In this document: positions 46,472 to 61,312 of the stretch, in pieces | How positions within the stretch are numbered: position 1 is the stretch's first letter | Layout of the letters: every line of letters starts with the position of its first letter | DNA from: Bradyrhizobium guangzhouense | GTDB lineage: Bacteria; Pseudomonadota; Alphaproteobacteria; Rhizobiales; Xanthobacteraceae | Direction: 5' to 3' | Assembly (NCBI RefSeq): GCF_004114955.1 | Contig: NZ_CP030053.1 | Span: 4,340,001-4,404,000, forward strand | Length of the DNA: 64,000 bases | Notes under the pieces: model-generated | Database searches by the model: none | Seen by the model: the letters and a program-made list of their open reading frames with translations, nothing else | Told to the model about the DNA's origin: nothing | Program-made: the position numbers and the translations under genes

Positions 46472-47338
46472 CTAGTTCAACACCTCGACCGTCGCCGAGC
46501 GGCCTGCGACCAGCGAGATTGCCTCAGGCACCGGATCGAGGGCGATGCGGACCGGCACGCGCTGGGCAAGCCGCACCCAGCTGAACGTCGGATTGACGTT
46601 GGCAAGCAGGCTCGCACCCTCGGCGCGGTCGCGGTCTTCGATACCGGCGGCGATGCTCTCGACATGGCCTGACAGGGTCGCCTTCTCGCCCATCAGACGG
46701 ACGCGAACCCTGTCACCGACGCGAATGCGCGCAAGCTTCGTCTCTTCGAAATAGCCTTCGACATGCAGCGTATCGCTGTCGACCAGCGCCATCACGCCCT
46801 TGCCGGCGGAGACGTAAGCGCCTGGGCGCAGATCCATATTGGTGATGACGCCATTCACGGACGCCCGCACCTCGCTGCGATCGAGATTGAGCTGGGCGAC
46901 CGCGCGATCGGCCACCGCCGCATCGAAGGCGGCCTTGGCCTGAAGCTGGGTCGCGAGCACCTGCTCCTGCTTCTGCTGCGACACTGCATCCGTCGTCAGC
47001 GCAGTATAGCGCTTCAGATCGGCGTTGGCCTGATCGAGCGTGGCCTGATGACCGGCGACAGCCGCATCGGCCTGCCGCAAAGCCAGCGCGAATCGTTCAC
47101 GATCGATCCTGAACAGTACGTCGCCGCGATGGACCTTCTGGTTGTCCTTGACGAGCACGTCGGTGACGAAGCCGGAGACGTCTGGTGCGACCTGCACCAC
47201 GTCGGCACGCACACGGCCATCGCGCGTCCATGGCGATTCCAAATAATAGACCCAGAGCGCGCGGCCGACGGCGAGCGCCGCGATGACCACGATGGCCGTC
47301 ACCGCAAGCCGGCCGAGCCAGGCAACATTTCCTTTCAT
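46472..47338 (-). CDS. HlyD-family efflux adaptor (AaeA-like)
   Basis: 288 aa. N-terminal anchor helix (LAVTAIVVIAALAVGRALWVYYL), then lipoyl half VAPDVSGFVTDVLVKDNQKVHRGDVLFRID, a long helical hairpin (about 80-150), the second half RSEVRASVNGVITNMDLRPGAYVS, and a beta-barrel with VEGYFEETKLARIRVGDRV. The layout and its partners identify it as the membrane-fusion subunit of an aromatic carboxylic acid efflux system. It starts 4 bases inside the end of the DUF1656 gene, so all three genes are translationally coupled. Confidence 0.92.
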   Translation of the reverse strand: MKGNVAWLGRLAVTAIVVIAALAVGRALWVYYLESPWTRDGRVRADVVQVAPDVSGFVTDVLVKDNQKVHRGDVLFRIDRERFALALRQADAAVAGHQATLDQANADLKRYTALTTDAVSQQKQEQVLATQLQAKAAFDAAVADRAVAQLNLDRSEVRASVNGVITNMDLRPGAYVSAGKGVMALVDSDTLHVEGYFEETKLARIRVGDRVRVRLMGEKATLSGHVESIAAGIEDRDRAEGASLLANVNPTFSWVRLAQRVPVRIALDPVPEAISLVAGRSATVEVLN

Positions 47339-47541
47339 GGGAGATACTCCGAGAGATAGACCACGCCGCCGAGCAGGCAGACGAAAACAGCGAAATCGAA
47401 CAGCGCGCGGTGCCAGACCAGACGGTAGAGGTCGAAGCGCTGCATGAGCCTACGCAAAATCGCGCTCAGCACATACGCGACGATGATCCAGAGCAGGAGC
47501 GCCGGCACGAGCACGCCGTAGATATCGATCACGTATCTCAT
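47335..47541 (-). CDS. DUF1656 small membrane protein (AaeX-like)
   Basis: 68 aa with two hydrophobic helices (YGVLVPALLLWIIVAYVLSAIL and ALFDFAVFVCLLGGVVYLS) separated by RRLMQRFDLYRLVWHR. The family is always found between an FUSC-type pump and its HlyD adaptor; its role is unknown, probably stabilising the pump. Overlaps both neighbours by 4 bases (47538-47541 and 47335-47338). Confidence 0.92.
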   Translation of the reverse strand: MRYVIDIYGVLVPALLLWIIVAYVLSAILRRLMQRFDLYRLVWHRALFDFAVFVCLLGGVVYLSEYLP

Positions 47542-49589
47542 GCCGCCACACTCGCATCTGCGCGCGGCCGGTACGCAGGCGCGTCCGGGAACAGGCCGCG
47601 CCTGATACCGACGAGGCCGATCAGGGCATCTTCGCGCGCGCTGTCATTGGGATCCTTCACCGCCTGGCCCAGCGCCCGGTCGACGCCAGCCAGAAGCTCG
47701 CGCGGCATTCCCCCGCCCGCATAGTTGCGGCAGGCAATGGCGAGCTGGTCGAGCATGTCGTCGATGACGGCGATAGTCGACGCCGCGAGCCCGTAGCGCG
47801 CGCGGCGCAGATCGATGATGTTGATGCCGATGCGGAGCTGCACCAGGCTGTCGGCGTCGCGGCGATCGCTCTCCGACAGGAAGGCGATGCGCTGCACCAG
47901 CAGCCCGAGACGGTGCAGCATGAGACCCGCGAACTCCGCGCGATCGCGTTTGCCGCGCCGTTCGGCCGCAATCGCGATCGTGGTCCAACTCGACAGCACC
48001 AGGCGGTTGGCGATCCACTCCGCCCCCACCCCGCGCGCAATCCGCGTCACGATCTCGGCGATCAGCACACCGACGAAGAATGCCACGGCGGAATTGGCAT
48101 AGGACGCGAAATCCGCGACGTAGGTCGATTGCAGCGCCAGCAGCGTCGCCGTGTTGGCGGCGAGCGCCATGCCGGTGCCCGCCGTGGCGGGCCGGCCGAT
48201 CAGGAAGCCGTAGAGCAGGAAAGTCGGTGCCAGCGCGACGATCAGAACCTCGATATGGGAGATCGCAGGCACCAGCGCGAACAAATAGATCGCGACGACC
48301 ACGATGGCGACCAGCGACCACAGGCCGAAGCTGCGGATAAATCGCGCCGGCTCGTCCTGCGCGGCGAAGAACGAGCAGGCCACGGCCGCCATCATCGGCG
48401 CCGAGGCGCCGTCCGGCCAGCCCGTGCCGATCCAGAACGCGCAGCAGATCAGGATGGCGGTCGCGGCGCCTGCCGCCGACCATAGCGCCAGGCCGCGATC
48501 CCTGTGGCGCACCGGCGCGGCGCCGGCTTCGGAATGGAAGGCGAGATCATCAGTGGAGATGCTGCGGCCCTCGCCAATGGCCTCGGTCAGCGCACGGCAG
48601 TCGCGCGAGAGGTCAACCAGATCGCGCAACCGCGACAGCAGGCTGGTGGTGATAATTCGCTCCCAGGAGGCATTGTCGTTCAGCCCCGCCTGCTGCTCAG
48701 CTATCTCGCCACGGATACGGTCGGCCGGCTGCCGCGCACCGACGTCACTCACGATCCATTGCGCAAGTTCTTCCAGCAAGCGCTTCAGCTCCGGCCGGCG
48801 CCCCAGGGCCTCCTCGCCCAATGCAGCCAGCCGATCCTCGATCGAGGCGATCACCGGCAGCAACGTCAACATCCGCAGCCGGATCTCGCCGAGGCTGGTC
48901 ACGGCATTGCGGTCGGTCAGGCGATCATAGGCAAGATGAGTGGAGAGCGTGTCGATCTCGACGATGTCGGTCGCGAGCTTGAGGCGCTTGCCGCGGCGGA
49001 TATCGCCCGTCGCGTCCCGCAACAGCACGGCCTGGCTGAGACGGCGTGCATCGGAAAGCCAGGTGTCGACGCGATGGGCCACGGCCGGTGCGACGCTGCG
49101 GGGGAACACGATGGTGGAGACGAGGCTGGCGCAGATGATTCCGAGCGAGATCTCCTCGAGCCTCGCCACCGCGGTGTCGAAAATCGCGCCGGGGTCGGAC
49201 ACCGAGGGGAAGCCGATCAGCGCCACCGTGTATCCGGCCAGCATGAAGACATAGCTGCGCGGCGTGCCGTCGAGCAACGACAGATAGAGGCACAGCCCGA
49301 CCCAGAGCGCGATCGCGAGGCACAGGAGTTCCGGCGCGTTGATCAGGTTCGGCACCAGCGCCACCGTCATGATCGCGCCGACCAGCGTGCCCATGACGCG
49401 GAAGAAGGCTTTCGAGCTGGTGGCGCCGGCCAGCGGCTGCGAGGTGATGTAGACGGTCGCCATCGCCCAATAGGGCCGCGGCAGGTCCATGGCGAGCGCA
49501 ATGATAAGCGCCAGCATCGACGCGGCAAACGTCTTCAACGCGAAAATCAAGTCCGCGTGGCGGACCAGAAACGGCTCATTTTCGCGCAT
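47538..49589 (-). CDS. FUSC-family aromatic acid exporter (AaeB-like)
   Basis: About 683 aa from the ATG at 49589 (MRENEPFLVRHADLIFALKTFAASMLALI). The frame stays open to 49793, but that leader is Arg-rich and overlaps a pseudogene relic. Two membrane halves: about residues 15-180 (PYWAMATVYITSQPLAGATSSKAFFRVMGTLVGA, the conserved FUSC motif) and about 375-530 (GLALWSAAGAATAILICCAFWIGTGWPDG through VLIAEIVTRIA), joined by a helical cytoplasmic segment. Exports aromatic acids or detergents with AaeA in related bacteria. First gene of the three-gene operon. Confidence 0.9.
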   Translation of the reverse strand: MRENEPFLVRHADLIFALKTFAASMLALIIALAMDLPRPYWAMATVYITSQPLAGATSSKAFFRVMGTLVGAIMTVALVPNLINAPELLCLAIALWVGLCLYLSLLDGTPRSYVFMLAGYTVALIGFPSVSDPGAIFDTAVARLEEISLGIICASLVSTIVFPRSVAPAVAHRVDTWLSDARRLSQAVLLRDATGDIRRGKRLKLATDIVEIDTLSTHLAYDRLTDRNAVTSLGEIRLRMLTLLPVIASIEDRLAALGEEALGRRPELKRLLEELAQWIVSDVGARQPADRIRGEIAEQQAGLNDNASWERIITTSLLSRLRDLVDLSRDCRALTEAIGEGRSISTDDLAFHSEAGAAPVRHRDRGLALWSAAGAATAILICCAFWIGTGWPDGASAPMMAAVACSFFAAQDEPARFIRSFGLWSLVAIVVVAIYLFALVPAISHIEVLIVALAPTFLLYGFLIGRPATAGTGMALAANTATLLALQSTYVADFASYANSAVAFFVGVLIAEIVTRIARGVGAEWIANRLVLSSWTTIAIAAERRGKRDRAEFAGLMLHRLGLLVQRIAFLSESDRRDADSLVQLRIGINIIDLRRARYGLAASTIAVIDDMLDQLAIACRNYAGGGMPRELLAGVDRALGQAVKDPNDSAREDALIGLVGIRRGLFPDAPAYRPRADASVAA

Positions 49590-49789
49590 GACTATTCGGC
49601 TCTGGATGCGCTGATGCGTCTCGCAGGTTATCGCAAGTTCGTCCGCACCGATATCCTTCAGCAAGGCTAGGGCGCGCCGGAGCACGCGGTTGGTCTCCTC
49701 GACCCTCGGCCTCGCCCCACTTTTGTCAAATGTAGCGTTTTGGCACGGCGGTCTTTTCCCGGCGATGAGAGGTGGAAGCCGCCCTCGCC

Positions 49790-49941
49790 TCACTTCACCC
49801 CATCCACGTCCGGATCGGCGCTCGAGCTCGGGGTCTTGAAGGCGGCTCGCAAGGCTGGCGACATCGGAACGTTGTAATTGATGCCGTTGGGCGGGTCGGC
49901 GATTCCAGCCACTTCCTGTAGAGCAGCTCGATCTCCGGGCT
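49790..49941 (-). pseudogene. 3' relic of an amino-acid ABC transporter binding protein (GltI-like), frameshifted
   Basis: On the minus strand one frame reads SPEIELLYRKWLESP, and one base out of frame it continues PPNGINYNVPMSPALRAAFK down to PDVDGVK and a stop at 49790-49792. Together they match the C-terminus of glutamate/aspartate-type periplasmic binding proteins (E-x-x-Y-x-KWF-x-x-PIPPKGIN-x-N-PMS-x-x-L-x-AAF). A single lost base in the SP(I)PP region explains the break. No further binding-protein sequence is visible upstream, so about 50 codons of a lost gene remain. Confidence 0.75.
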
Positions 49942-50067
49942 TGCGTCGTGCCGGCCGCCAGATCAGCTTGGGTCTACCAGCTATCGCGGCTTTCGATATG
50001 GCGGCAGGCCCGTCGCCTCCGCTACATTGCCACCATCCAGGAATCGCTTATCAGTCAGATCCCCTTC

Positions 50068-51309
50068 ATGACCGCCCAGACCGCCTTCGACCTGATCTTC
50101 CGCAACGCCCTGATGCGATCATCCCCGACGCCCGTCGATATTGGAGTGACGGGCGGACGCATCACCGCGATCGAACCCCACCTGGCCTGCGAGGCCGTCG
50201 AGATCGATGTCGGGGGACGGCTGGCCCTGCCCGGCTTCGTCGACACTCACATTCATCTCGACAAGGCCTGCCTGTTGGAGCGCTGCGGGCACATCCACGG
50301 CACGCTCGGCGATGCCATCCGCGCCGTCTCGGCGATGAAGCGGGATTTCAGCACGGACGATGTCTATGCGCGCGGCGCCAAAGTGCTCGAACGCGCCATC
50401 GTGCACGGCACGACGCGGATGCGCACCCATGTCGAGATTGACCCGCGCATCGGCCTGCGCAGCTTCGAGGCGGTCAAGGCGCTCAAGCGGGACTATGCCT
50501 GGGCGATTGACCTGTCGCTATGTGTGTTCCCGCAGGAGGGCCTGACCAACGACCCCGGCGCCGATGAGCTGCTGCTTCAGGCCTTGCGCGACGGCACCGA
50601 CGCGATCGGCGGCTGCCCCTATACCGACACCGATCCGAACGCGCATCTGAAGCGCATCTTCGATCTCGCCCAACAGTTCGACCTCGACGTCGACCTTCAT
50701 CTCGATTTCGATCTCGATCCCTCCTGGTCACATCTCGACGAAGTCATTGGGCAAACCGAGCAGCGCAATTACGGAGGCCGCGTCGCGATCGGGCATGTGA
50801 CAAAGCTCTCGGCCCTGCCTCCGGAGCGGCTGAAGGCCGCCACCGCACAGCTGGCCAAGGCCGGCGTCGCCATCACGGTGCTGCCGGCGACCGATCTGTA
50901 CCTAATGGGGCGCGAGGCCACCCATAACGCGCCGCGCGGACTGACGCTCGCACACAAGCTCGTAGCCGGCGGCATCGTCTGCTCGGTCGCCACCAACAAT
51001 GTGCTCAATCCCTTCACGCCGTTCGGCGATGCCTCGCTGCTGCGGATGGCGAACTTCTACGCCAATGTCGCTCAAGCCGCCGTCGGCGATTTCGACACCT
51101 GCCTCGATCTCGTCACCGAGCTGCCGGCGCGGCTGATGAATCTCAAAGACTATGGCATCGCGGTCGGCAAGCCCGCAGATCTCGTCGTCCTCGATATCAA
51201 GGACAGCCGCTTCGCCATTGCCGAGCTGCCTGAAATCCTGATGGGGTTTAAAAACGGACGGCAGACTTTTGAGCGGTCGCCGGCCAAGCTGCTTCATCCG
51301 CGAAACTGA
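50068..51309 (+). CDS. Amidohydrolase, cytosine deaminase (CodA)-like
   Basis: 413 aa. Metal-binding DTHIHLDKACLLERCGHIHGTL, HVEIDPRIGLRSFEAV and DLHLDFDLDPSW, GHVTKLSAL, and NNVLNPFTPFGDASLLRMA, the CodA active-site Asp loop with a missing D-N-V pattern (ATNNVLN). It removes an amino group or opens a ring of a nitrogen heterocycle. Start ATG 50068. Followed at 37 bp by a second amidohydrolase on the same strand; the pair is probably one unit. Confidence 0.88.
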   Translation: MTAQTAFDLIFRNALMRSSPTPVDIGVTGGRITAIEPHLACEAVEIDVGGRLALPGFVDTHIHLDKACLLERCGHIHGTLGDAIRAVSAMKRDFSTDDVYARGAKVLERAIVHGTTRMRTHVEIDPRIGLRSFEAVKALKRDYAWAIDLSLCVFPQEGLTNDPGADELLLQALRDGTDAIGGCPYTDTDPNAHLKRIFDLAQQFDLDVDLHLDFDLDPSWSHLDEVIGQTEQRNYGGRVAIGHVTKLSALPPERLKAATAQLAKAGVAITVLPATDLYLMGREATHNAPRGLTLAHKLVAGGIVCSVATNNVLNPFTPFGDASLLRMANFYANVAQAAVGDFDTCLDLVTELPARLMNLKDYGIAVGKPADLVVLDIKDSRFAIAELPEILMGFKNGRQTFERSPAKLLHPRN

Positions 51310-51346
51310 ACCGCGCGCGACACATCGACCCTACGGGAGCAACCGG

Positions 51347-52552
51347 ATGGCCTTCGACAAGATCTTCCTGAACGCCCGCTTCGACGGCGGGGCGCGGCAT
51401 CACATCGCGGTCAAGGACGGCCTGATCGCCGCGCTTCTGCCGACCGACACGCCCGCAAGCGGCGTCGAGACCGTCGACCTCGGCAACGCCCTCGTCGTTC
51501 CCGGCTTCGTCGAGGGCCACATCCATCTCGACACCAGCTTCTATGGCGATGCCTGGCGTCCGCACAAGCCGTGCACCGCCGGCTTCAACGTGCACGAACG
51601 CGTGGCCTTCCAGGCTCAGAACATGGCCGAGGCGGCGCCGATGGACGTGCGGGCGCGCAACCAGCTCGATCTCTGCATCGGTCATGGCTCCACGCAGATG
51701 CGCAGCCACGTCATGGTCGACGGCTCGGTCGGCCTGAAGTCGCTCGAGACGATCCTGCGCGTGCGCGAGGAATATCGCGGCCTGATCGACATCCAGCTCG
51801 TCGCCTTTCCCCAGAGCGGCATCTTGACGAGCCCGGGCACGCCGCAATTGCTCGACGAGGCGATCGGCGTCGGTGCGAACCTCGTCGGCGGGCTCGATCC
51901 CGCGAGCTTTGATCGTGATGTCGAGAAGCACCTCGACGTCGTGTTCGGCGTCGCCGAGAAGCATGGCGTGGATGTCGACATCCATCTGCACGACATGGGC
52001 ACGCTCGGCGCTTTCGAGATCGAGCAGATCGCGGTGCGCACGCGCGCGCTCGGCATGGAGGGCCATGTCGCCATCAGCCACGCTTACGGGCTCGGCGATA
52101 TCACGGCGGATCAACTCAAGGGCATCGCCGACATCCTCGCCCGCTCCGGTGTCGCGATCATGACCAACGCGCCGGGCGCCCGCGCCTTCCCGCCGATCCT
52201 CATCCTGCGCAGCGCCGGCGTCACCGTGTTCAGCGGCAACGACAACATCCGGGATTCCTGGTGGCCCTACGGCGACGGCGACATGCTGCGGCGGGCGACG
52301 ACGCTCGGCTATCGCTCGGGTTTCAACGTTGATGAGGAACTTCGCGTCGCGTTCGACGTCGTCACTGCGTCAGGCGCCAAGGCGCTACGGCTTGAAGGTT
52401 ACGGCCTGCATGTCGGCGCCAAGGCGGATTTCGTGACGCTGGACGCGAAGCATGTTCCGGAGGCCGTGGTCGCGGTGCCGCAGGGCCGCGCTGTGTACAA
52501 GGCAGGTATGCTCGTCGCGCTCGACGGTAGAATTGTCGGGAAACAGCGCTGA
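51347..52552 (+). CDS. Amidohydrolase, cytosine/isocytosine deaminase-like
   Basis: 401 aa. PGFVEGHIHLDTSFYGD (HxH plus the HLD that positions the ring), IGHGSTQMRSHVMVD, DIHLHDMGTLG, ISHAYGLGDI and SGNDNIRDSWWPYGDGDML, the CodA-type catalytic Asp loop. That loop is intact here, unlike in the preceding paralog, so this is the likelier deaminase. GGGAG precedes the start by nine bases. Substrate could be a pyrimidine or a related N-heterocycle. Confidence 0.9.
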   Translation: MAFDKIFLNARFDGGARHHIAVKDGLIAALLPTDTPASGVETVDLGNALVVPGFVEGHIHLDTSFYGDAWRPHKPCTAGFNVHERVAFQAQNMAEAAPMDVRARNQLDLCIGHGSTQMRSHVMVDGSVGLKSLETILRVREEYRGLIDIQLVAFPQSGILTSPGTPQLLDEAIGVGANLVGGLDPASFDRDVEKHLDVVFGVAEKHGVDVDIHLHDMGTLGAFEIEQIAVRTRALGMEGHVAISHAYGLGDITADQLKGIADILARSGVAIMTNAPGARAFPPILILRSAGVTVFSGNDNIRDSWWPYGDGDMLRRATTLGYRSGFNVDEELRVAFDVVTASGAKALRLEGYGLHVGAKADFVTLDAKHVPEAVVAVPQGRAVYKAGMLVALDGRIVGKQR

Positions 52553-53029: not shown

Positions 53030-53944
53030 CTACGGCTTGATCTTCGCCAGGATGCGGTCCGCCTCGGTGCGCCAATCGGCGCTGCGGGCGAACTCCTTCG
53101 TCCCCTTGGTGCCGAACAGGCCCTCGTCGGCGAGATCGGCAACCCAGGCCTGACGCTCGGCCGTGCCTTGCGCAGACCAGGGCGTCAGCCCGGCTTCGCG
53201 GACGGTCTCGGCGACCTCACGCACCTCTTCGGCGCGGCGGCGGCCATGCTCGATCACGCGCTGGAAGAAATAGGCGCCCTGCTTCTCCCAGTTGATCGCG
53301 GGAAAGGTTTCCGTCAGCGACGCCAGCACCGCATCCTCGACGCCATAGGCACGTGCAGTGGTGAAGCTTTCGATAACCATGGCCTCCAGGCCCTTGATCA
53401 TGATGCTGCGGCACATCTTCACCGCCGAGGATACGCCGAGCTTGTCGCTCGCAACCTTCGCCGCAAAGCCGATCGCATTCAGCAGCGGTTCGAGCTCTCT
53501 TGCGCCGGGGCCACCAAGCAGCAGCGGCACCTTGATCCGATAAGGCGGCACCGAGGTCATCACCGCGCCCTCGACATAACGACCGGCCGCGCCGTCGATC
53601 AGCGCGGCCGCGCGCTGCTTGGCGCCTGGAGAGGCCGAGTTGAAATCGAGGAACCAGGTGCCCTGGTTGATCGCATCAGCGCAGGCTCTTGCGACCGGCA
53701 CGGCCTGACTGGCGGTGACGGCCGAGATGATGAAATCGGACTTCGCGGTCAGCTCGGCATGCGACGCCGCCAGCATCACGCCGAATTTTGCGGCGTGCTC
53801 CTTCAACACGGCGCCCTGTTCGCCTCCAAGCTTGATGTCGTAAGCGGCGACCTTGATGTCCTGCCGCCGGAGATCCTCGGCCAGGATGCGGCCGACCTCG
53901 CCATAGCCCACCAGCCCGATCTGCCACCGCTTCGGATCCGCCAT
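53030..53944 (-). CDS. NAD(P)-dependent oxidoreductase, 6-phosphogluconate dehydrogenase-like (DUF1932)
   Basis: 304 aa. N-terminal Rossmann motif IGLVGYGEVGRILAEDLRRQ, SAVTASQAVPVARACADAI and FLDFNSASPGAKQ, followed by an all-helical C-terminal DUF1932-type domain (AVKMCRSIMIKGLEAMVIESFT). Members reduce or oxidise hydroxy acids. Last gene of the ring-cleavage operon, with its ATG overlapping the previous stop by one base (TGATG). Here it could act on a hydroxy or keto acid near the aldolase step. It is not LigC, which belongs to another family. Confidence 0.87.
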   Translation of the reverse strand: MADPKRWQIGLVGYGEVGRILAEDLRRQDIKVAAYDIKLGGEQGAVLKEHAAKFGVMLAASHAELTAKSDFIISAVTASQAVPVARACADAINQGTWFLDFNSASPGAKQRAAALIDGAAGRYVEGAVMTSVPPYRIKVPLLLGGPGARELEPLLNAIGFAAKVASDKLGVSSAVKMCRSIMIKGLEAMVIESFTTARAYGVEDAVLASLTETFPAINWEKQGAYFFQRVIEHGRRRAEEVREVAETVREAGLTPWSAQGTAERQAWVADLADEGLFGTKGTKEFARSADWRTEADRILAKIKP

Positions 53945-54813
53945 CAATTCAATCCTCGCGTCGTTGCGTCGAAGAGTTCCTCGACCGGATAGCGGCGCGG
54001 AATCAGCGCCTGCTGGAATGCATAGTCGATGATCAGCTCCAACGGTTTCCTGTTCGCCTCGATCCCGAAGGGCAAGAGGTCGGGTGTCGCCGCCGGCCCC
54101 GTCTGTTCCTTGTTGCGCTTGAGCAGATCATAGATGCCGGCCACCACGTCGGGACGCGATTTCGCAAGGCCTTCGGTCACGACCACGAGATGGTTGACCG
54201 GCACGACGCCACGGCGCGCATACCATTTGGCCGCTTCCGCGCCCGGATCGGGGAACAGCGACTTCACCTTGGGATCGTTTGAGGTCTCTCCAAGAACGGC
54301 ATCGACCTCGCCGTCGAGCAGCATCTGCAAGACCTTCTTGTCCTTCGGCGCGCGCTCGGTGGTGTCGACATATTCGGCGACGTGCGGATCTTCGAAGGTA
54401 ACCCAGCGGATCTTGTCGAGATTGACGCCGTAATCGTTGGCGAGAATGCCTCGGATCCAGGCCCCGGTCGTGGTCGTGAACGAGCGGATGCCGACGCGCT
54501 TGCCTTCGAGATCGCCGGGCCCGAGCGTCCCGTGCGCCGGATTGTACAGCGCATAGGCATGCTGGAAACGGCCGAGCATGGTCGCCGGCAGCAGCACCAG
54601 CGGCTTGCCGTGGGCCTTCGCCATCAGGTAGGTGACGATCGCCATCTCACAGACGTCGAAGGCCTGCTCACGCACCATCGGCTTGAATGCCGTGTTGGTC
54701 GGCTTGTACTCGATGAAGTCGAGATCGAACAGGTCGGAGCGGAGCTCGCCACTCTTCACCGCCTCGACGTGAGGGTGACTGCCGAGCACGGCCTTCAGCT
54801 TGAGACGATCCAT
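53944..54813 (-). CDS. 4,5-dihydroxyphthalate decarboxylase-like / periplasmic-binding-fold protein
   Basis: 289 aa without a signal peptide, so cytoplasmic. The binding-protein-like fold (LKLKAVLGSHPHVEAVKSGELRSD, FDVCEMAIVTYLMAKAHGKPLVLLPATML, GDLEGKRVGIRSFTTTTGAWIRGILAN) is the one annotated as 4,5-dihydroxyphthalate decarboxylase, which makes protocatechuate from phthalate breakdown. GAGAGGG precedes the start at 54813. Position in a protocatechuate-cleavage operon fits that role. A substrate-sensing or binding role is the alternative. Confidence 0.75.
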   Translation of the reverse strand: MDRLKLKAVLGSHPHVEAVKSGELRSDLFDLDFIEYKPTNTAFKPMVREQAFDVCEMAIVTYLMAKAHGKPLVLLPATMLGRFQHAYALYNPAHGTLGPGDLEGKRVGIRSFTTTTGAWIRGILANDYGVNLDKIRWVTFEDPHVAEYVDTTERAPKDKKVLQMLLDGEVDAVLGETSNDPKVKSLFPDPGAEAAKWYARRGVVPVNHLVVVTEGLAKSRPDVVAGIYDLLKRNKEQTGPAATPDLLPFGIEANRKPLELIIDYAFQQALIPRRYPVEELFDATTRGLN

Positions 54814-54835
54814 CCGCCCTCTCCGCTCCTCTTCC

Positions 54836-55519
54836 TCAGACGTCCTCGGGATTGTCGACGTAGACGAGCCCCGCTTTCGCCAGCGCCTCGCGCATGCCGT
54901 ACATGTCGAGGCCAAGCTCGCCCGAAGCAAGCCGCGTGCGCTTGCCGCCCTCATCGGCGTTGCGCTTCTTCGCTTTCTCGGCAACTTCAGCGGCGTAACG
55001 CTTCGGCACCACGACGACGCCGTCGTCATCCGCGACGATGATGTCGCCGGGATCGACGTTCACGCCGGCGCAGACCACGGGGACGTTGACCGAGCCGAGG
55101 GTCGCCTTCACAGTGCCCTTGGCCGAGACCGCCCGCGACCACACCGGAAAGTTCATCTCATGCAGCGCCTTGACGTCGCGGCAGCCGGCATCGATGATCA
55201 GCCCCTGCACGCCGCGCGCCCTCAGCGAGGTCGCGAGCAACTCGCCGAACATGCCGTCGGTGTTGTCGGTGGTGCAGCCGACGACGAGGACGTCACCCTT
55301 CCTGCACTGCTCGACCGCGACATGGATCATCCAGTTGTCGCCGGGCTGCGCCAGCACGGTGACGGCGGGACCGGCGATCGACGCGCCGGCCCAGACCGGC
55401 CGCAAGTATGGCTTCATCAGCCCGAGGCGGCCATAGGCTTCGTGCACGGTCGAGACGCCGTACTCCGCCATCCCGGCGGGGTCGGCTCGCTCGATGTTGC
55501 GAACGACGACAGGCTTCAT
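54836..55519 (-). CDS. ligK: 4-carboxy-4-hydroxy-2-oxoadipate aldolase (LigK/GalC), RraA-like fold
   Basis: 227 aa. Catalytic/metal residues of the class II aldolase are in [17 protein letters not shown] (Arg and Asp), with [21 protein letters not shown] and [29 protein letters not shown] is the metal-side helix. It splits 4-carboxy-4-hydroxy-2-oxoadipate into pyruvate and oxaloacetate, the last step of protocatechuate and gallate 4,5-cleavage. Its start overlaps galB's stop by 4 bases, and the preceding hydratase supplies its substrate. Confidence 0.9.
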
Positions 55520-56229
55520 GCCAACTCCTCCGCAACCGTCGGGAACAGGCGCTGATAGGCCTCGCCATAGGTCATGGGCACGCCGGTGTTGCGGCTGCCC
55601 TGGATACCGCGGTTAAGCGCAACGCGCTCGTAATAGCCCCAGAGATGCTTTTGCGCGGCGAGGATCTGGAACGCCTCGTACTTCTCCTTCCAGACCTCGT
55701 CGATCTTGAGCAACAGATCCGGCTTGTAATTGCATTGCTCGGGCTGGTGCGGCTCGAACAGGAACACCGGTGGGGCGGAATATTTATATTGCGCGCCGGG
55801 CTTGTGGCCCATCGCCTGCGCGACCACGCGGGTCTCCTGGGCGAAATGCGCCGCGTTCGGGTGGTCGAAATTATAGGGATCTTCCAAAGCGTGCGTCAGC
55901 ACGAAGCTCGGATTGAGCTCGCGGTAGATGTCGACCATGCGGTCGAAATGCGCTTCGGTGAGCTTGAGCGGATAGTCGCCACAGTCGAAGAACTCGATCT
56001 CGGCTCCTAACAGCTTGGCCGCCCGCTCCGCCTCGTCCTTGCGGCCGGCCTTGACCGATTCCAGCGTCGCGCCCTTTTCCTTCCAGGCGAACTGGCTCTC
56101 GCCGCGCTCGCCAAAGGACATGCAGACGATCTTCATGCGATAGCCCTTCTTCGCATGCAGCGCGATGGCGCCGCCGGCGCGCCAGACGAAGTCGCCGGGA
56201 TGGGCGGTGATCACGAGACCTGTTTTCAT
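55516..56229 (-). CDS. galB: 4-oxalomesaconate hydratase (GalB), PIG-L family
   Basis: 237 aa. The zinc motif is the GalB-type [18 protein letters not shown] (rather than HPDDE of sugar deacetylases) with the HPNAAHF histidine. [39 protein letters not shown] is the PIG-L helix pair. It hydrates 4-oxalomesaconate to 4-carboxy-4-hydroxy-2-oxoadipate. It overlaps ligK and starts 66 bp after dctA. The gene order hydratase-aldolase is the order of the pathway. Confidence 0.9.
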
Positions 56230-56295
56230 GGGAGAACTCCCCTCTTTCGTTCGTCAGCATCATAGGCTGCTCGCGTCATGCCGGCAGCAAGTTCA

Positions 56296-57597
56296 TCAGG
56301 CGGCGGCGGCCGCAGGTTCCTCACCGTCGAGTACGCGCGTCAGGCGCTCACCATCGAGCGCGCCTTCCCATTTGGCAATCGCGATGGTCGCAACCGCGTT
56401 TCCGATCAGATTGGTCGGCGTCAGCCCCTGCGACATCAGGCGATGGATGCCGAGCACCAGCGCGACGCTCGTCACCGGAATCGTGCCGGTGGCCGACAAT
56501 GTCGCCGCCAGCACGACAAAGGCCGCGCCCGCGATGCCCGCAGCACCCTTGGAGGTCACGAGCAAGATCAGCAGCAGCTCGATCTGCTCGGCGAGTCCGA
56601 GCGGCGTGTTGGTCGCCTGAGCCAGGAACACCGAGGCGGCAGCGAGATAAAGGCACGTGCCGTCGAGATTGAAGGAATAGCCGGTCGGAATCACCAGTCC
56701 GACCACACTCCTCTCGCAGCCGGCCTTCTCCAGCTTGGTCAGCATGCGAGGCAGCACTGTCTCCGACGACGTCGTGGCGATGCAGATCAAAAGCTCTTCC
56801 CAGATATAGCGGATCAGCTTGAGCAACGAGAAGCCGCAGAGCCGCGCGACGGGGCCAAGCGCCACGATGATGAAGATGACGCAAGTGAGATAGAAGCCGC
56901 CGAGCAGCTTGCCGAGCGAGGCCAGCGATCCCACGCCGAACTTGCCGACGGTGAAGGCAATCGCGCCGAACGCGCCGATCGGCGCCGCCCACATCACGAA
57001 GCCGACCACGGCGAATACCATCTTGGCGGCGATGTCGACCAGATGGACCAGCGGCGCGGCGCGCTCGCCGAGCTGCACCAGCGCAAACCCGCACAGCACT
57101 GAGATGAACAGGACCTGGAGGATGTTGCCCTCGGCAAAGGCGCCGATGAAGGTCGCCGGCACGATGTTCATCAGAAACGGCACGAAGCCGATCACGGTGG
57201 TCTGCTTGACATAGGGCTCGACCGCGCTGGCATTGATGCTGGCGGGATCGATGTTCATGCCGGCGCCGGGCTTGAGTACATTCACCGCGATGAGACCGAT
57301 GATCAGCGCGATCGTTGTCATGATCTCGAAATAGACGATGGCCTTGATCGCAACGCGCCCGACCCGCGCCATGTCCGCCATATGCGCGATGCCGTGGACG
57401 ACGGTGCAGAAGATGATCGGCGCGATCAGCATCCGGATCGCCTTGATGAAGGCGTCGCCAAGCGGCTGCATCTTGGCCCCTAGCTCGGGACTGGCGATCC
57501 CGAGCGCGATGCCGGCCGCCATGGCGATGAGCACCTGGATCCAGAGCTCCTTCCACCAGGCGCGCCCGCGCGGCTTGTCGATCGCCATCGCGGTCAT
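56296..57597 (-). CDS. dctA: Dicarboxylate:cation symporter (DctA type)
   Basis: 433 aa, eight helices plus two hairpin loops. Typical motifs are PLGDAFIKAIRMLIAPIIFCTVVHGIA, the serine-rich hairpin TTSSETVLPRMLTKLEKAGC, GYSFNLDGTCLYLAAASVFLAQ and TSKGAAGIAGAAFVVLAATL. Takes up C4-dicarboxylates with H+ or Na+. Placed inside the operon, it may carry a ring-cleavage dicarboxylate such as pyrone-dicarboxylate or a tricarboxylate. It overlaps the LigI stop by 4 bases. The Asn/Asp of NLDGT in helix 7 is conserved. Confidence 0.93.
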   Translation of the reverse strand: MTAMAIDKPRGRAWWKELWIQVLIAMAAGIALGIASPELGAKMQPLGDAFIKAIRMLIAPIIFCTVVHGIAHMADMARVGRVAIKAIVYFEIMTTIALIIGLIAVNVLKPGAGMNIDPASINASAVEPYVKQTTVIGFVPFLMNIVPATFIGAFAEGNILQVLFISVLCGFALVQLGERAAPLVHLVDIAAKMVFAVVGFVMWAAPIGAFGAIAFTVGKFGVGSLASLGKLLGGFYLTCVIFIIVALGPVARLCGFSLLKLIRYIWEELLICIATTSSETVLPRMLTKLEKAGCERSVVGLVIPTGYSFNLDGTCLYLAAASVFLAQATNTPLGLAEQIELLLILLVTSKGAAGIAGAAFVVLAATLSATGTIPVTSVALVLGIHRLMSQGLTPTNLIGNAVATIAIAKWEGALDGERLTRVLDGEEPAAAAA

Positions 57598-58472
57598 CGG
57601 TCGAACTCGAACAAGCGTGCGGGATTGTCGACCAGGATCTTCTGCTGGAATTCCAACTCCGGCGCGAACAGCGGGATCAGGTCGACGAGGTCGCCGTCGT
57701 TCGGCATCACCTTGACGTTGGGATGCGGCCAGTCGGTACCCCAGATGACGCGGTCCGGGGCGGTCTCGACAATCTTGCGTGCGAACGGCACGGCGTCAGT
57801 AAAAGGCGGGCCGGCCGACGAGACCCGCTCCGAGCCGCAGATTTTGACCCAGCACTTTTCGTCGCGCTGCATCAGCTCTATCAGGATCTTGAACGGAAGC
57901 TGGCCGAGGCCTTCCGATGCCTTCACGCGTCCCATATGGTCGATGGTGTAGCTCAGCGGCAGCCTGGTCAGCATGTCGGCATGGTCAGGCAGATCGATCG
58001 CATCGAAGTGCAGATCGATGTGCCAGCCGAGCGGTGCGACCATCGCGACGATGCGGTCGAACACACGCTTGTCGGGCACGCCGCCGAGATGGCGAACGAA
58101 ATTGAAGCGGCAGCCGCGGAAGCCGCCTTCGTGCAGCACGCGCAAGCCCCGCTCGCTGATGGTGTCGTCGATATTGGCGACCGCGCGATAGGCACCGTTG
58201 CTCTGCGCGATCGCATCGAGCGCCACCGTATTGTCGGTCCCGTGCACGCTGGCATTGACGATGACCGCGCGCTCGACGCCGAGCTTGGCGTGGAGCACCT
58301 TGAAGTCCTCGAGCGGCGCATCCGGCGGCGTGTAGGACCGGTCAGGCGCGTAAGGGTATTTCGCGCCGGGGCCGAAGATGTGGCAGTGCGCATCGCATGA
58401 CAGCTTTGGCAGCTTGAATTTTGGCGTGCGCGTGTTGGGATCGGGCGGCGGAATGGTGGGCGTGTACGTCAT
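57594..58472 (-). CDS. ligI: 2-pyrone-4,6-dicarboxylate lactonase (LigI), amidohydrolase family
   Basis: 292 aa cog3618-type amidohydrolase. Metal/active-site residues: CDAHCHIFGPGAKYPYAPDRSYTPPDAP, VNASVHGTDN, GCRFNFVRHLGG, SYTIDHMGRV and IWGTDWPHPNVKVMPNDGDLVDL with the catalytic Asp. It opens 2-pyrone-4,6-dicarboxylate to 4-oxalomesaconate/4-carboxy-2-hydroxymuconate. Cytoplasmic; 5 bp after its paralog and overlapping dctA by 4 bases. Confidence 0.9.
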   Translation of the reverse strand: MTYTPTIPPPDPNTRTPKFKLPKLSCDAHCHIFGPGAKYPYAPDRSYTPPDAPLEDFKVLHAKLGVERAVIVNASVHGTDNTVALDAIAQSNGAYRAVANIDDTISERGLRVLHEGGFRGCRFNFVRHLGGVPDKRVFDRIVAMVAPLGWHIDLHFDAIDLPDHADMLTRLPLSYTIDHMGRVKASEGLGQLPFKILIELMQRDEKCWVKICGSERVSSAGPPFTDAVPFARKIVETAPDRVIWGTDWPHPNVKVMPNDGDLVDLIPLFAPELEFQQKILVDNPARLFEFDR

Positions 58473-58477
58473 CTTGA

Positions 58478-59431
58478 TCAGCTGAATTTGAACAGGCGCG
58501 CGGGGTTGTCGACCAGCAGCTTCTGCCGGATCGCCTTGTCGGGCGCATAGAGGGGGATCAGGTCGACGATCTCGCCGTCATTGGGCATGATCTTGACGTT
58601 GGGATGGGGCCAGTCGGTGCCCCAGATGACGCGATCCGGCGCATTGTCGATCAGCGCCCTCGCGAACGGCACGGCGTCGTGGAACGGCTTTCCGCCCGCG
58701 GAAGCGCGCTCCAGACCTGTGATCTTGACCCAGCACTTCTCGTCGTTCTTCTGGAGATCGAGCAGCGCCGTGAAGCCTGGATCGCCGAGACCCTTCGCGG
58801 CTTGAACGGTCCCCATGTGATCGATCACGTAAGGCGTCGGCAGCGCAGTCAGGATCGGTGCGAAGTCGGCAATCGTACCGGGCTCGAAATAGACGTCGAT
58901 GTGCCAGCCCAGCTCGGCGACGCGGTGCACGATGCGCTGGAACTTGTTCATGTCCCCGACGCCGCCGAGGCGCTTGAGGAAGGCGAAGCGGCAGCCGCAG
59001 ATGCCGGCCTTGTCGAGCGCGGCAAGCTCCTTCTCGGTCATCTCATCGCTGACATTGGCGATGCCCTTGTAGGCACCCTCGCTCTGCGCGATGGCATCGG
59101 TGACGACGCGGTTGTCGGTGCCGTGCACGGTGGCATTGACGATCACGCAGCGCTCGACGCCGATCTTCTCGTGCACGCTGCGGAACGTCTCCAGCGGCGC
59201 GTCGGCCGTGTTGTACGGGCGCTTTTCCGAGAAGGGATAGCGGGACGCGGGTCCGAAGATATGCGTGTGGCTGTCGCAGGATTTCGGCGGCAATTTGAAC
59301 GACGGGGTCTTGGGATCGGGATCCGGCGGCTTGATCGTCGGAATCGCCCTCGGCTCTTCCGCACGCACTTTGCCTGCGAGCGCGGCGCCGGCCAGCCCGG
59401 TCAAGAGATGGAAGCACTCCCGCCTGTTCAT
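58478..59431 (-). CDS. LigI-like lactonase paralog with an N-terminal export signal
   Basis: 317 aa. The active-site set is the same as in the next gene (CDSHTHIFGPASRYPF, VNATVHGTDN, GCRFAFLKRLGG, IWGTDWPHPNVKIMPNDGEIVDL). The N-terminus adds MNRRECFHLLTGLAGAALAG and KVRA|EEP, a signal peptide with a twin-arginine (RRECF). So this copy is predicted to act in the periplasm, while its neighbour is cytoplasmic. Start ATG 59431. First structural gene of the operon, 74 bp after the TetR stop. Confidence 0.88.
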   Translation of the reverse strand: MNRRECFHLLTGLAGAALAGKVRAEEPRAIPTIKPPDPDPKTPSFKLPPKSCDSHTHIFGPASRYPFSEKRPYNTADAPLETFRSVHEKIGVERCVIVNATVHGTDNRVVTDAIAQSEGAYKGIANVSDEMTEKELAALDKAGICGCRFAFLKRLGGVGDMNKFQRIVHRVAELGWHIDVYFEPGTIADFAPILTALPTPYVIDHMGTVQAAKGLGDPGFTALLDLQKNDEKCWVKITGLERASAGGKPFHDAVPFARALIDNAPDRVIWGTDWPHPNVKIMPNDGEIVDLIPLYAPDKAIRQKLLVDNPARLFKFS

Positions 59432-59505
59432 TTCCCAAAACACCCCGTTACATGTCCGCTTGCGAGCGAAGGCGCCGTGACGCGCCTCCCCTCAGGCGGT
59501 TTCTT

Positions 59506-60216
59506 TCAAGTCTTGCTGCTTGCGATAGCCCGCCGCCGCGCCGGCGTCGCCTGATCCAGCGCGGGTGCCTGGAATGCTGCAACGGTGGCCTGCACCATCT
59601 GCTCGATGGCGTTGGCGGCATCATTGCCATCGGCCTCGCCGCGCGACAGGCGCGAGACACGGTCCGGCGTCACCAGCGAGTAGTACAGCGCGCCGAGCAG
59701 GAAGTGGCTGCGCCAGACGATGTCGGTGCGCGGAATGTGCGGCAGGCTCTCGTGGATCGCGTCGATGAAGGCGTGGCTGGTGTCGTCAAACGTCTGCGCG
59801 ATGATCTTTCGCGCCACTTCGTTGCCCTCGGCCGACATCACCGCGCGCAGCCGCGTGAAACGCGCGCCGCCGCCGGCGAGATCGCTGCCCGAGGTGAAGG
59901 CCGGCACCACATAGGCCCGCACGATGGCTTCCAGCCGGTCCTGGAGATCGCGCACGCGCTTGGCGGCGGCGAGCAGCTCGGAGCGGCGCAGGTTCATCGG
60001 GCCGCAATGCCGGCGGTAGATCTCCAGCAGCAGGCCGTCCTTGGTCTTGAAATGATAGGTGACGCTGCCAGGGTTGGCCCCAGCCGCGTGCGCGATATCG
60101 CGCACCGAGACGGCGTTGAAGCCGTTGGTGGCGAACAGCTCCTCGGCCGCGGCGAGGATCGCCTCGCGCATGTTCGGCTTGCGGGCCGTTTCCTTGCTGG
60201 TGGGCTTGCGTGCCAT
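59506..60216 (-). CDS. TetR/AcrR family regulator of the ring-cleavage operon
   Basis: 236 aa from the ATG at 60216 (MARKPTSKETARKPNMREAILAAAEELFATNGFNAVSVRDIAHAAGANPGSVTYHFKTKDGLLLEIY). Full TetR helix-turn-helix; the Lys/Arg leader binds DNA backbone. C-terminal ligand domain (LLGALYYSLVTPDR). It is the first gene of the minus-strand run and faces the binding protein gene across a TTTGTAC palindrome that starts 5 bp before its own ATG. Probably represses both sides until the aromatic acid or an intermediate binds. Confidence 0.93.
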   Translation of the reverse strand: MARKPTSKETARKPNMREAILAAAEELFATNGFNAVSVRDIAHAAGANPGSVTYHFKTKDGLLLEIYRRHCGPMNLRRSELLAAAKRVRDLQDRLEAIVRAYVVPAFTSGSDLAGGGARFTRLRAVMSAEGNEVARKIIAQTFDDTSHAFIDAIHESLPHIPRTDIVWRSHFLLGALYYSLVTPDRVSRLSRGEADGNDAANAIEQMVQATVAAFQAPALDQATPARRRAIASSKT

Positions 60217-60220
60217 GTGA

Positions 60221-60238
60221 TTTGTACTATCGTACAAA
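60221..60238. promoter_or_regulatory. TTTGTAC-TATC-GTACAAA operator
   Basis: Perfect 7-bp arms with a 4-bp centre, 5 bp before the TetR start codon and 94 bp before the binding-protein gene. Spacing and symmetry are typical of an autoregulating TetR repressor site. Confidence 0.7.
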
Positions 60239-60331
60239 AGATCAGGTCTCGTCAACAAAAACCACGGGCAATGTCCGGAGGCGGCTCGAAGACCACCGCG
60301 GGCGCGAAAAGCCCTTAGGGAGTGCTGAACC

Positions 60332-61312
60332 ATGCTTGGGTTGAAAATGACGATCGGCCGCCTGATGCTCGGCGCCGGTGTGCTGTTCGCCTGCGGCGCC
60401 GCGCGTGCCGCCGACAGCTATCCGAGCAAGCCGGTCCACATCCTGGTGCCCTACGCGGCCGGCGGGGCCGTCGACGTGCTCGCCCGCACGCTCGGCCAGG
60501 CACTCGCGAAAACCTGGGGCCAGCAGCCCGTGATCGACAACCGCCCCGGCGCCGGCGGCATCGTCGCCTCGCAGGCGCTGACGCAAGCCGCGCCCGACGG
60601 CTACACGCTGATCCTGGTCGCCAGCGGCCATCCGCTCAACCAGTTCATTTATCCGAGTGTGCCCTACGACACGTTCAAGGATTTTACGGCAATCACCGAA
60701 GTCGCCTCCTCGCCCCTCGCGATCGTGGTCGCAAAGGACAGCCCCTACAAGACGCTCGGCGATCTGCTCGCCGCGGCGAAGAAAGATCCCGACAAGCTCT
60801 CCTACGGCATGTCCGGCAACGGCACGTCAGCACATCTTGCCGGCGAGCTCCTGAAATACATGTCCGGCACCAGGATCGTCGCGATCCCCTACAAGGGCGG
60901 CGCGCCGGCGCTGACCGCGGTCATATCAGGCGAGATTCCGCTCAGCATCAATCCGCTGGCGGAGGCGATCGGCCAGCTCGACGGCGGCCCGGTGCGGGCA
61001 CTCGCCGTGACTTCGGCCGAGCGCTCCAAGGCGCTGCCGAACGTGCCGACGGTCGCCGAATCCGGCGTCCCAGGCTACGACGTCCCTGTCTGGTGGGGCG
61101 TGCTGGGACCCGCAAAGATGCCGCCCGAGATTGTCACGAAACTCGAGGCCGATCTGAAGGCGGCGCTGCAGGACCCGAACGTGATCTCCACGCTGAGCAA
61201 GATCGGCGCAACCCCGGTCGGCTCCTCGCCCGGGGAATTTGACGCCTACATCCATGCCGAAGCGACCAAATGGGAGCCCGTGCTGAAGGCCGCCGACATC
61301 CGCGCGCAGTGA
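60332..61312 (+). CDS. Tripartite tricarboxylate transporter substrate-binding protein (Bug/TctC family)
   Basis: 326 aa. Signal peptide RLMLGAGVLFACGAARA|AD, then the family pattern YPSKPVHILVPYAAGGAVDVLARTLGQALAK, VIDNRPGAGGIVASQALTQAAPDGYTLIL and PYKGGAPALTAVISGEI. AGGGAG lies nine bases before the ATG. It binds a carboxylate in the periplasm and delivers it to a TctAB membrane pair, which is not in the window. Divergent from the TetR gene. Confidence 0.93.
   Translation: MLGLKMTIGRLMLGAGVLFACGAARAADSYPSKPVHILVPYAAGGAVDVLARTLGQALAKTWGQQPVIDNRPGAGGIVASQALTQAAPDGYTLILVASGHPLNQFIYPSVPYDTFKDFTAITEVASSPLAIVVAKDSPYKTLGDLLAAAKKDPDKLSYGMSGNGTSAHLAGELLKYMSGTRIVAIPYKGGAPALTAVISGEIPLSINPLAEAIGQLDGGPVRALAVTSAERSKALPNVPTVAESGVPGYDVPVWWGVLGPAKMPPEIVTKLEADLKAALQDPNVISTLSKIGATPVGSSPGEFDAYIHAEATKWEPVLKAADIRAQ

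Follow-up and report, generated by a model that had tools for sequence, protein, structure and literature searches.

Genes at the locus

We examined a 64-kb stretch of Bradyrhizobium guangzhouense DNA (G000:C1:4340001-4404000, referred to here as the window) that contains a compact operon resembling the lower part of a 4,5-cleavage pathway for aromatic acids, with two genes for proteins like LigI, the 2-pyrone-4,6-dicarboxylate (PDC) lactonase. The genome of 8.14 Mb is in two contigs and is rated 100% complete. LigI, GalB, and LigK catalyze consecutive steps after 4,5-ring cleavage of protocatechuate or gallate. An earlier reading, made from the sequence alone, had described eight genes, a divergent gene for a Bug-type binding protein, and a perfect operator, and all of these were found in the order and at the positions that it gave.

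The eight genes are on the reverse strand. The first encodes a TetR-family regulator (59506..60216; PF00440/PF17939), a probable repressor of the operon and of a VOC-family dioxygenase gene outside the window. It is followed by LigI-1 (58478..59431), a LigI-like lactonase with a twin-arginine signal and the residue pair R130/Y156, and LigI-2 (57594..58472), a LigI-like lactonase that lacks a signal and has H130/H156. Both match PF04909, and the best solved relative of both is LigI (PDB 4d8l; 228 and 222 bits). Next are a DctA-type C4-dicarboxylate symporter (56296..57597; PF00375, 347 bits; NF002461, 595 bits over a cutoff of 513) and a GalB-type 4-oxalomesaconate (OMA) hydratase (55516..56229), which aligned at full length, over residues 1 to 237, with the GalB hydratase structure 5cgz (302 bits). 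LigK, a LigK/PcmE aldolase (54836..55519), scored above the equivalog cutoff of TIGR02798 (359 versus 304.5 bits) and above that of NF006731 (375 over 179). The last two genes encode a 4,5-dihydroxyphthalate decarboxylase-like (DHPD-like) protein (53944..54813), with a distant match to PDB 9jp7 (E 1e-25) and none in NCBIfam, and a DUF1932 NAD(P)-dependent oxidoreductase (53030..53944; PF09130 and PF03446) with an ATG start, for which a TTG start at 53947 is possible. The overlaps of 1 to 4 bases that had been noted earlier are present at three of the seven junctions, but the other four are gaps of 5, 22, 66, and 74 bases (counted with the TTG start). The same operon is found in named relatives, for example, B. 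zhengyangense, B. liaoningense, B. iriomotense, and B. japonicum strains.

The divergent Bug/TctC-type periplasmic binding protein (60332..61312, forward strand; PF03401, 247 bits; PDB Bug27, 2qpq) has no TctA gene nearby. Between it and the TetR gene is a putative TetR operator (60221..60238), the dyad TTTGTAC-TATC-GTACAAA, whose arms are conserved with varying spacers.

A dioxygenase gene with the same operator

For the exact operator motif, the expectation in 64 kb is 2.5e-5 occurrences. Because some perfect 7-bp dyad with a spacer of 0 to 10 is expected 0.13 times in the 115-bp gap, and because a genome-wide scan for the pattern gave three sites versus two for a control pattern, support for the operator rests on its conservation. 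In fetched loci that total 2.8 Mb, many of which overlap or were picked around these genes, the arms occurred at 115 sites with 20 spacer strings (14 with orientations merged), and the control pattern occurred at none. TetR homologues that are 85% and 80% identical to the one in the window head LigJ-LigK-LigI-LigAB-LigC clusters with the same operator in two other Bradyrhizobium genomes (G007 and G047; loci L074 and L075). The three genomic sites are the one between TetR and Bug, C1:4421478, and C1:2444607. The last of these was set aside; it is beside an ABC binding protein gene, with none of the operon's genes in the surrounding 14 kb.

The sequence-only reading had pointed out that the ring-cleavage dioxygenase was missing. 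A LigA profile search of this genome gave no match, and the same search was positive in 25 of 146 Bradyrhizobium genomes (the genus sample; G numbers denote genomes and L numbers fetched neighborhoods). LigA was counted at E 1e-25 or better, giving 18 of 146 once seven genomes with weak, mostly partial matches above the family cutoff were dropped. Two LigB-family genes are present, but because LigA has no match there is no LigAB pair. Neither LigB-family gene was retained as a ring-cleavage enzyme: L001 encodes a short protein, which we take to be YgiD/DODA-like, and L002 is on the second replicon with weak LigJ- and LigK-like neighbors (37% and 32%).

Thus, the lack of a LigA-type enzyme was upheld, but a dioxygenase gene of another family lies past the end of the window, about 20 kb from the operon. 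This gene, for a VOC extradiol dioxygenase (G000:C1:4420407-4421372; L194:8408-9373), is convergent with an open reading frame (ORF) for a 1171-amino-acid molybdopterin/cytochrome c dehydrogenase-like protein. The operator copy at C1:4421478 is ca. 105 bp upstream of it, and the two operators are 21 kb apart. The protein scored above the catechol 2,3-dioxygenase equivalog TIGR03211 (373 versus 320 bits), as expected for the two-domain catechol 2,3-dioxygenase family, and matched 9wgj with 410 bits. It holds motifs that we assume carry the iron ligands.

The dioxygenase is widely associated with the operon. Orthologues were found in 123 of the 146 genomes (E 1e-120), including, among the matches listed, all 101 that have LigI-2. 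Only one of those 101 (G101) has LigA at E 1e-25 or better, and the number rises to four with weak matches (adding G093, G127, and G128). The operator upstream of the dioxygenase gene was exact in 29 of the best 30 of the 123 loci, this genome included, and had one mismatch in the other. Furthermore, the dioxygenase gene directly follows the DHPD-like gene within the LigI-2 operon in nine distinct genomes (L048, L051=L091, L053, L092, L095, L197, L238, L240, and L242), eight of them Bradyrhizobium and one (L197) outside the genus. Six places were fetched twice (L042=L083, L051=L091, L052=L097, L041=L010, L012=L087, and L015=L084), and distinct-genome counts allow for this. A DHPD-like homologue directly precedes the dioxygenase gene in 12 distinct loci; the clusters L229, L233, and L236, in which the two genes come in this order, have GalB and no LigI-2.

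The link extends to genomes that lack LigI-2. Stand-alone dioxygenase genes had the exact operator, with varied spacers, in five of six such genomes (L230, L231, L232, L234, and L235), and all five have a TetR homologue (81 to 88% identical) elsewhere. TetR was present in 13 of the 16 genomes tested among the 22 with the dioxygenase and without LigI-2. Two of the three that lack TetR (G015 and G053) had no operator in 19 kb around the dioxygenase gene. These results suggest that TetR probably regulates both the operon and the dioxygenase gene through the shared operator, a link that appears to be strong, if not universal.

The lack of a dioxygenase had led to the suggestion of a scavenger living on PDC from other organisms, with LigI-1 opening it outside and the product being imported. 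An operon without ring cleavage of its own would fit the failure to find LigA. It would also fit a TetR-LigI-Bug set with the same operator and no GalB or LigK alongside in another genome (L268:7346-11934, G405), which adjoins a gene for a phenol-hydroxylase-type flavin adenine dinucleotide (FAD) monooxygenase. This set is consistent with PDC use as a separable module, in which TetR might sense PDC or a later intermediate. PDC does leak from other bacteria, as detailed below. However, the shared operator, the co-occurrence in all 101 LigI-2 genomes among the matches listed, and the dioxygenase genes inside nine LigI-2 operons all point to ring cleavage by the same cells. The existence of a probably coregulated dioxygenase weakens the case for such scavenging, which we now regard as unlikely.

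A predicted exported LigI

The sequence-only reading had an RR-type export signal on just one LigI copy, and this was confirmed. LigI-1 begins with the predicted twin-arginine signal peptide MNRRECFHLLTGLAGAALAGKVRA (59360..59431, reverse strand), for which we infer a cleavage site, followed by EE; LigI-2 has no such signal. Among nine diverse LigI-1 copies, eight of them 68 to 94% identical to the one in the window, M1, R3, and R4 were the sole invariant residues before residue 30. Every LigI-1 N terminus inspected had the RR pair and a hydrophobic stretch, and no LigI-2 had one downstream of its likely start. With a rule modeled on twin-arginine translocation (Tat) signals (an N-terminal RR plus a hydrophobic stretch, rather than SignalP), 13 of 94 LigI ORFs in 80 named loci passed. 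Twelve were credible, none of them a Bradyrhizobium LigI-2; the thirteenth (L102) is upstream of the likely start and is not credible. LigI-1 therefore has the sequence features of a Tat substrate, kept in orthologues and absent from the paralogue.

The DNA of this region also behaves like coding sequence. Across codons 1 to 19 of the LigI-1 clade (30 distinct 5' sequences), there were 9, 8, and 16 variable sites at the first, second, and third codon positions. Pairwise codon differences in codons 2 to 19 comprised 1603 synonymous and 1253 nonsynonymous changes, and three codons were used for Arg4. This is the pattern of a translated, loosely constrained stretch. The conclusion that LigI-1 is a lactonase exported by the twin-arginine pathway is thus well supported by conservation. 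In one genome (G077; L043:9471-10419) LigI-1 matched in two overlapping frames.

Genus counts took LigI-1 as scoring at least 490 bits and assigned LigI-2 by score alone, at 360 to 420 bits against LigI-1; the residue pattern itself was seen in 31 LigI-2 rows and 30 LigI-1 rows of 77 aligned. Among the matches listed, LigI-1 was found in at least 30 of the 146 genomes and LigI-2 in at least 101. The exported copy is generally accompanied by a second LigI: 24 of 30 LigI-1 genomes also have LigI-2, and five (G025, G045, G064, G097, and G145) instead have a LigAB-linked LigI. No partner LigI was seen for the LigI-1 of G016. LigI-1 is beside DctA, or beside LigI-2 and DctA, in the window and in L041 to L046, L078 to L085, L087, and L198 (some of these being the same place twice). 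Its other settings include LigI-2 with Bug (L048) and LigABC-type clusters (L047 and L072). A similar arrangement, with a LigAB-type cytoplasmic LigI, then an RR-signal LigI, and then DctA, is found in L098 (Rhodocyclales) and L115.

In a 95-row LigI tree, the LigI-1 clade was separate from the L098 and L115 copies, with signal-less rows inside the larger group holding LigI-1. Export changed at least twice on this tree, a minimum count, and DctA adjoins exported copies of both clades. Two gains of export are, most simply, how the tree would be read, for a quick method that gave long-branch warnings, does not distinguish gain from loss, and leaves the order of the LigI-2, LigI-1, and L098/L115 groups unsettled. 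Near duplicates, namely, L078 to L085, L087, L091, L097, and most rows from the genus, were left out of the tree.

Active sites and probable lactonase function

The claim that both LigI copies have catalytic motifs was accurate for the catalytic residues, with a nuance for substrate-binding positions. In numbering taken from the 4d8l alignments, both copies retain H31, H33, Y49, R124, H180, D248, and N253, so that each has the catalytic set of HxH, H180, and D248 plus R124. R124, H180, and D248 were present in all 95 tree rows. At position 77, LigI-2 has Ser and LigI-1 has the Thr that is also found in the LigAB-linked LigI of Bradyrhizobium; positions 130 and 156 are Arg and Tyr in LigI-1 and His and His in LigI-2. 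Work by Hobbs from 2012 reportedly has positions 130 and 156 binding substrate, R124 and R130 holding carboxylates, and D248 acting as the base.

One possibility is that these lactonases act on a lactone other than PDC, with the exported copy serving a separate role in nutrition or detoxification. It could explain the changes N126A and HMGR to HMGT in the LigI-1 clade and R130H/Y156H in LigI-2, and the best NCBIfam model of both copies is that for 4-sulfomuconolactone hydrolase (NF042924). However, the scores with that model (297 and 287 bits) are far under its cutoff of 500, and the same model is the sole match of the LigAB-linked LigI in L047. Moreover, of the fetched loci with LigB and LigC matches, seven (L099, L105, L116, L125, L131, L153, and L155) have LigI of the HH type only, six (L135, L137, L139, L144, L151, and L157) have the RY type only, and L098 holds one of each; these counts hold within the fetched flanks, and LigI genes elsewhere in those genomes are possible. 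With no other LigI type beside it in seven such loci, the HH enzyme very likely hydrolyzes PDC too, and the idea of LigI-2 as a LigI broken by R130H/Y156H was rejected. Exported copies inside LigABC-type clusters in G025 and G045 also argue for PDC. A different lactone as the substrate therefore seems improbable, and we consider that the exported LigI probably reclaims pyrone-dicarboxylate.

The pair at positions 130 and 156 was RY in 30 of the 95 rows, HH in 56, HY in 5, RW in 3, DY in 1, and RH in none; among 86 rows, the pair changed from RY to HH or back at least twice. R/Y and H/H covary in the LigI family, as a coupled active-site switch would.

What the dioxygenase may cleave

Neighborhoods of the VOC dioxygenase in other families offer clues to its substrate. 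Eight were found with homologues that are 61 to 66% identical. The homologue is with GalB, LigK, the OMA tautomerase LigU, and DUF1932 in five of them (L260, L263, L265, L266, and L267); L261 and L262 have GalB, LigK, and LigU some 6 to 8 kb away; and GalB, LigK, LigU, and DUF1932 were not seen near the homologue in L264. No LigC or LigI match was found in any of the eight stretches. A product that goes straight to a tautomerase, a hydratase, and an aldolase should be OMA, i.e., the product of gallate cleavage. Ring cleavage, perhaps of gallate, is thus probably present in this organism.

It is also conceivable that the VOC enzyme cleaves protocatechuate and that the DUF1932 protein replaces LigC in forming PDC, which would make LigI obligate. 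DUF1932 genes are frequent in both kinds of cluster, LigA has no match in this genome, and a LigI is present in five of nine VOC-bearing genomes outside the family, for which PDC could thus be a required intermediate. However, the LigABC cluster of L047 includes, flanked by LigI and LigK, a DUF1932 gene that is 82% identical to the one in the window, together with a LigC gene (PF01408/PF19858), and homologues of that LigC stand with DUF1932 in L067, L069, and L071. Because LigC coexists there, DUF1932 does not substitute for it in those loci, and we rejected it as a LigC replacement. The nine operons with the VOC gene and LigI-2 have no DUF1932 match in the fetched flanks. G436 and G157 have GalB, LigK, and LigU near the VOC gene (within ca. 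8 kb in G436) and no LigI at E 1e-60, with G157 also having a LigB homologue. This protocatechuate route also seems improbable.

A proposed ring-cleavage regulon

We propose a regulon under TetR control that comprises the VOC dioxygenase, GalB, LigK, the cytoplasmic LigI-2, the exported LigI-1, and re-uptake by DctA or Bug, and judge from the sequence comparisons that it has an even chance of being correct. The dioxygenase would most likely open a trihydroxylated benzoate such as gallate to OMA, which GalB and LigK would convert to pyruvate and oxaloacetate. The lactone PDC would be a side product or leak of ring cleavage. LigI-2 may re-open PDC in the cytoplasm, and LigI-1, exported by the Tat pathway, may do the same outside it, with PDC or a closely similar dicarboxylated lactone as its substrate. 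DctA, a Bug-dependent system, or both would then re-import the opened product.

The sequence-only reading had likewise suggested that the exported copy opens external PDC and that DctA or a tripartite tricarboxylate transporter (TTT) system imports the product. The first part gained support, as the pair of exported and cytoplasmic LigI with a transporter gene recurs and PDC is known to leave cells. Two reports describe wild-type Comamonas testosteroni KF-1 secreting PDC on 4-hydroxybenzoate at 0.46 mmol per g (dry weight) per h (PMC10154247) and a Novosphingobium strain without ligI, desC, and desD converting vanillate to PDC at a ca. 96% yield, measured in the medium (PMC8091115). However, TTT import is weak: the three TctA genes of this genome lie at distances of more than 0.4 Mb, which leaves the Bug protein without a nearby membrane partner.

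Several observations weigh against the proposed regulon. The sampled genomes are related, and hence the counts are not independent. In a genome with LigA (G131), the stand-alone VOC gene has no operator, the best site having five mismatches (L237), and an 82% identical VOC gene near TetR and Bug (L239) has as its only exact site that of TetR. L265 also holds a LigB homologue (49%), a possible ring-cleavage enzyme there. The LigI genes of the five VOC-bearing genomes mentioned above lie elsewhere in those genomes. LigI-1 departs from canonical LigI near the active site in the N126A and HMGT changes already described. Of nine TetR loci from genomes that lack LigI-2, six retain the DHPD-like gene with TetR (five of them also DUF1932) and have no GalB, LigK, or LigI alongside, suggesting that the dioxygenase and DHPD-like pair may serve another pathway. 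Furthermore, no DctA or Bug was seen in the fetched flanks of L086, which is exported, or of L196, whose signal was not inspected and which has one reported internal stop.

Comparison with known systems

GalA/DesB gallate dioxygenases are LigB-family proteins with a LigA domain. The candidate here is of the VOC family, in a genome without a LigA-domain match, and so is not a gallate dioxygenase of the known kind. The Pseudomonas putida KT2440 gallate (gal) cluster has a dioxygenase, the GalB hydratase, and a 4-carboxy-4-hydroxy-2-oxoadipate (CHA) aldolase. These three functions are shared with the genes described here, as is the tautomerase in the VOC clusters of other families; the LigI copies are extra. 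In the part of the AromaDeg report available, gallate dioxygenases are in the LigB family, unlike the type I VOC enzyme here, and no gallate enzyme is named among VOC substrates (PMC4250580). A literature search, mostly without subscription papers, turned up neither a LigI that is exported nor a gallate dioxygenase of the VOC family.

The lig/pmd operon for protocatechuate 4,5-cleavage also has LigI, an OMA hydratase, and LigK in one operon, and the clusters of G007 and G047 share the TetR homologue and operator as well. In contrast, the operon described here has no LigAB or LigC (no genome-wide search was aimed at LigC), its hydratase is GalB rather than LigJ, it has two LigI genes, one with an export signal, and it includes the DctA and DHPD-like genes. 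Both LigI copies share the fold family and catalytic set of 4d8l; they differ from it in the Tat-type signal of LigI-1 and the His residues at 130 and 156 of LigI-2. To our knowledge, all described LigI enzymes are cytoplasmic.

With PDC opened outside and a dicarboxylate carrier encoded in the same operon, a cell could take back the PDC that it loses itself and also what its neighbors leak. If so, an extracytoplasmic step would be added to a catabolic route treated as cytoplasmic. The VOC enzyme, which was found in 123 of the 146 sampled genomes, would, if it acts as proposed, be a candidate for another class of gallate-type ring-cleavage enzymes, unrelated to the first. It would also explain how this genus, dominant in soil, may consume products of tannin and lignin without LigAB. 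A broader statement is possible, on which our confidence is somewhat below even: the genus may cleave gallate or a close trihydroxybenzoate with a VOC enzyme not so far linked to such a reaction, and roughly one in five of the sampled species (at least 30 of 146) may export a second PDC lactonase, which on the simplest reading arose at least twice, recapturing leaked pyrone via DctA. PDC is a platform chemical for polymers, and an exported lactonase with a transporter could be useful or unwanted in producer strains.

Accessory and neighboring genes

The DHPD-like protein was rejected as a substitute for the tautomerase because an OMA tautomerase scoring above cutoff is encoded elsewhere in the genome. 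The reduced TetR-DHPD-like operons (L289, L290, L291, L292, L295, and L296) have DUF1932 next in five of six, with the VOC gene elsewhere in the genome. DUF1932 genes are also beside LigI in L047, L067, L069, L071, L072, and L077, the others being 80 to 92% identical to that of L047, and four of these six stretches also contain LigC. The DUF1932 protein may be an unrecognized common member of OMA pathways.

On the second replicon (G000:C2:872416-873231 and following, L039), a distant LigI-like gene (33 to 36%) adjoins a LigK-like gene (39%). HlyD-type and FUSC/aromatic-acid-exporter-type genes at 46472-49793 of the window, a few kilobases from the operon, may function in aromatic acid efflux. 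A tandem pair of PF07969 amidohydrolase genes lies at 49948-52552, and one or both keep this place beside the operon in many Bradyrhizobium loci.

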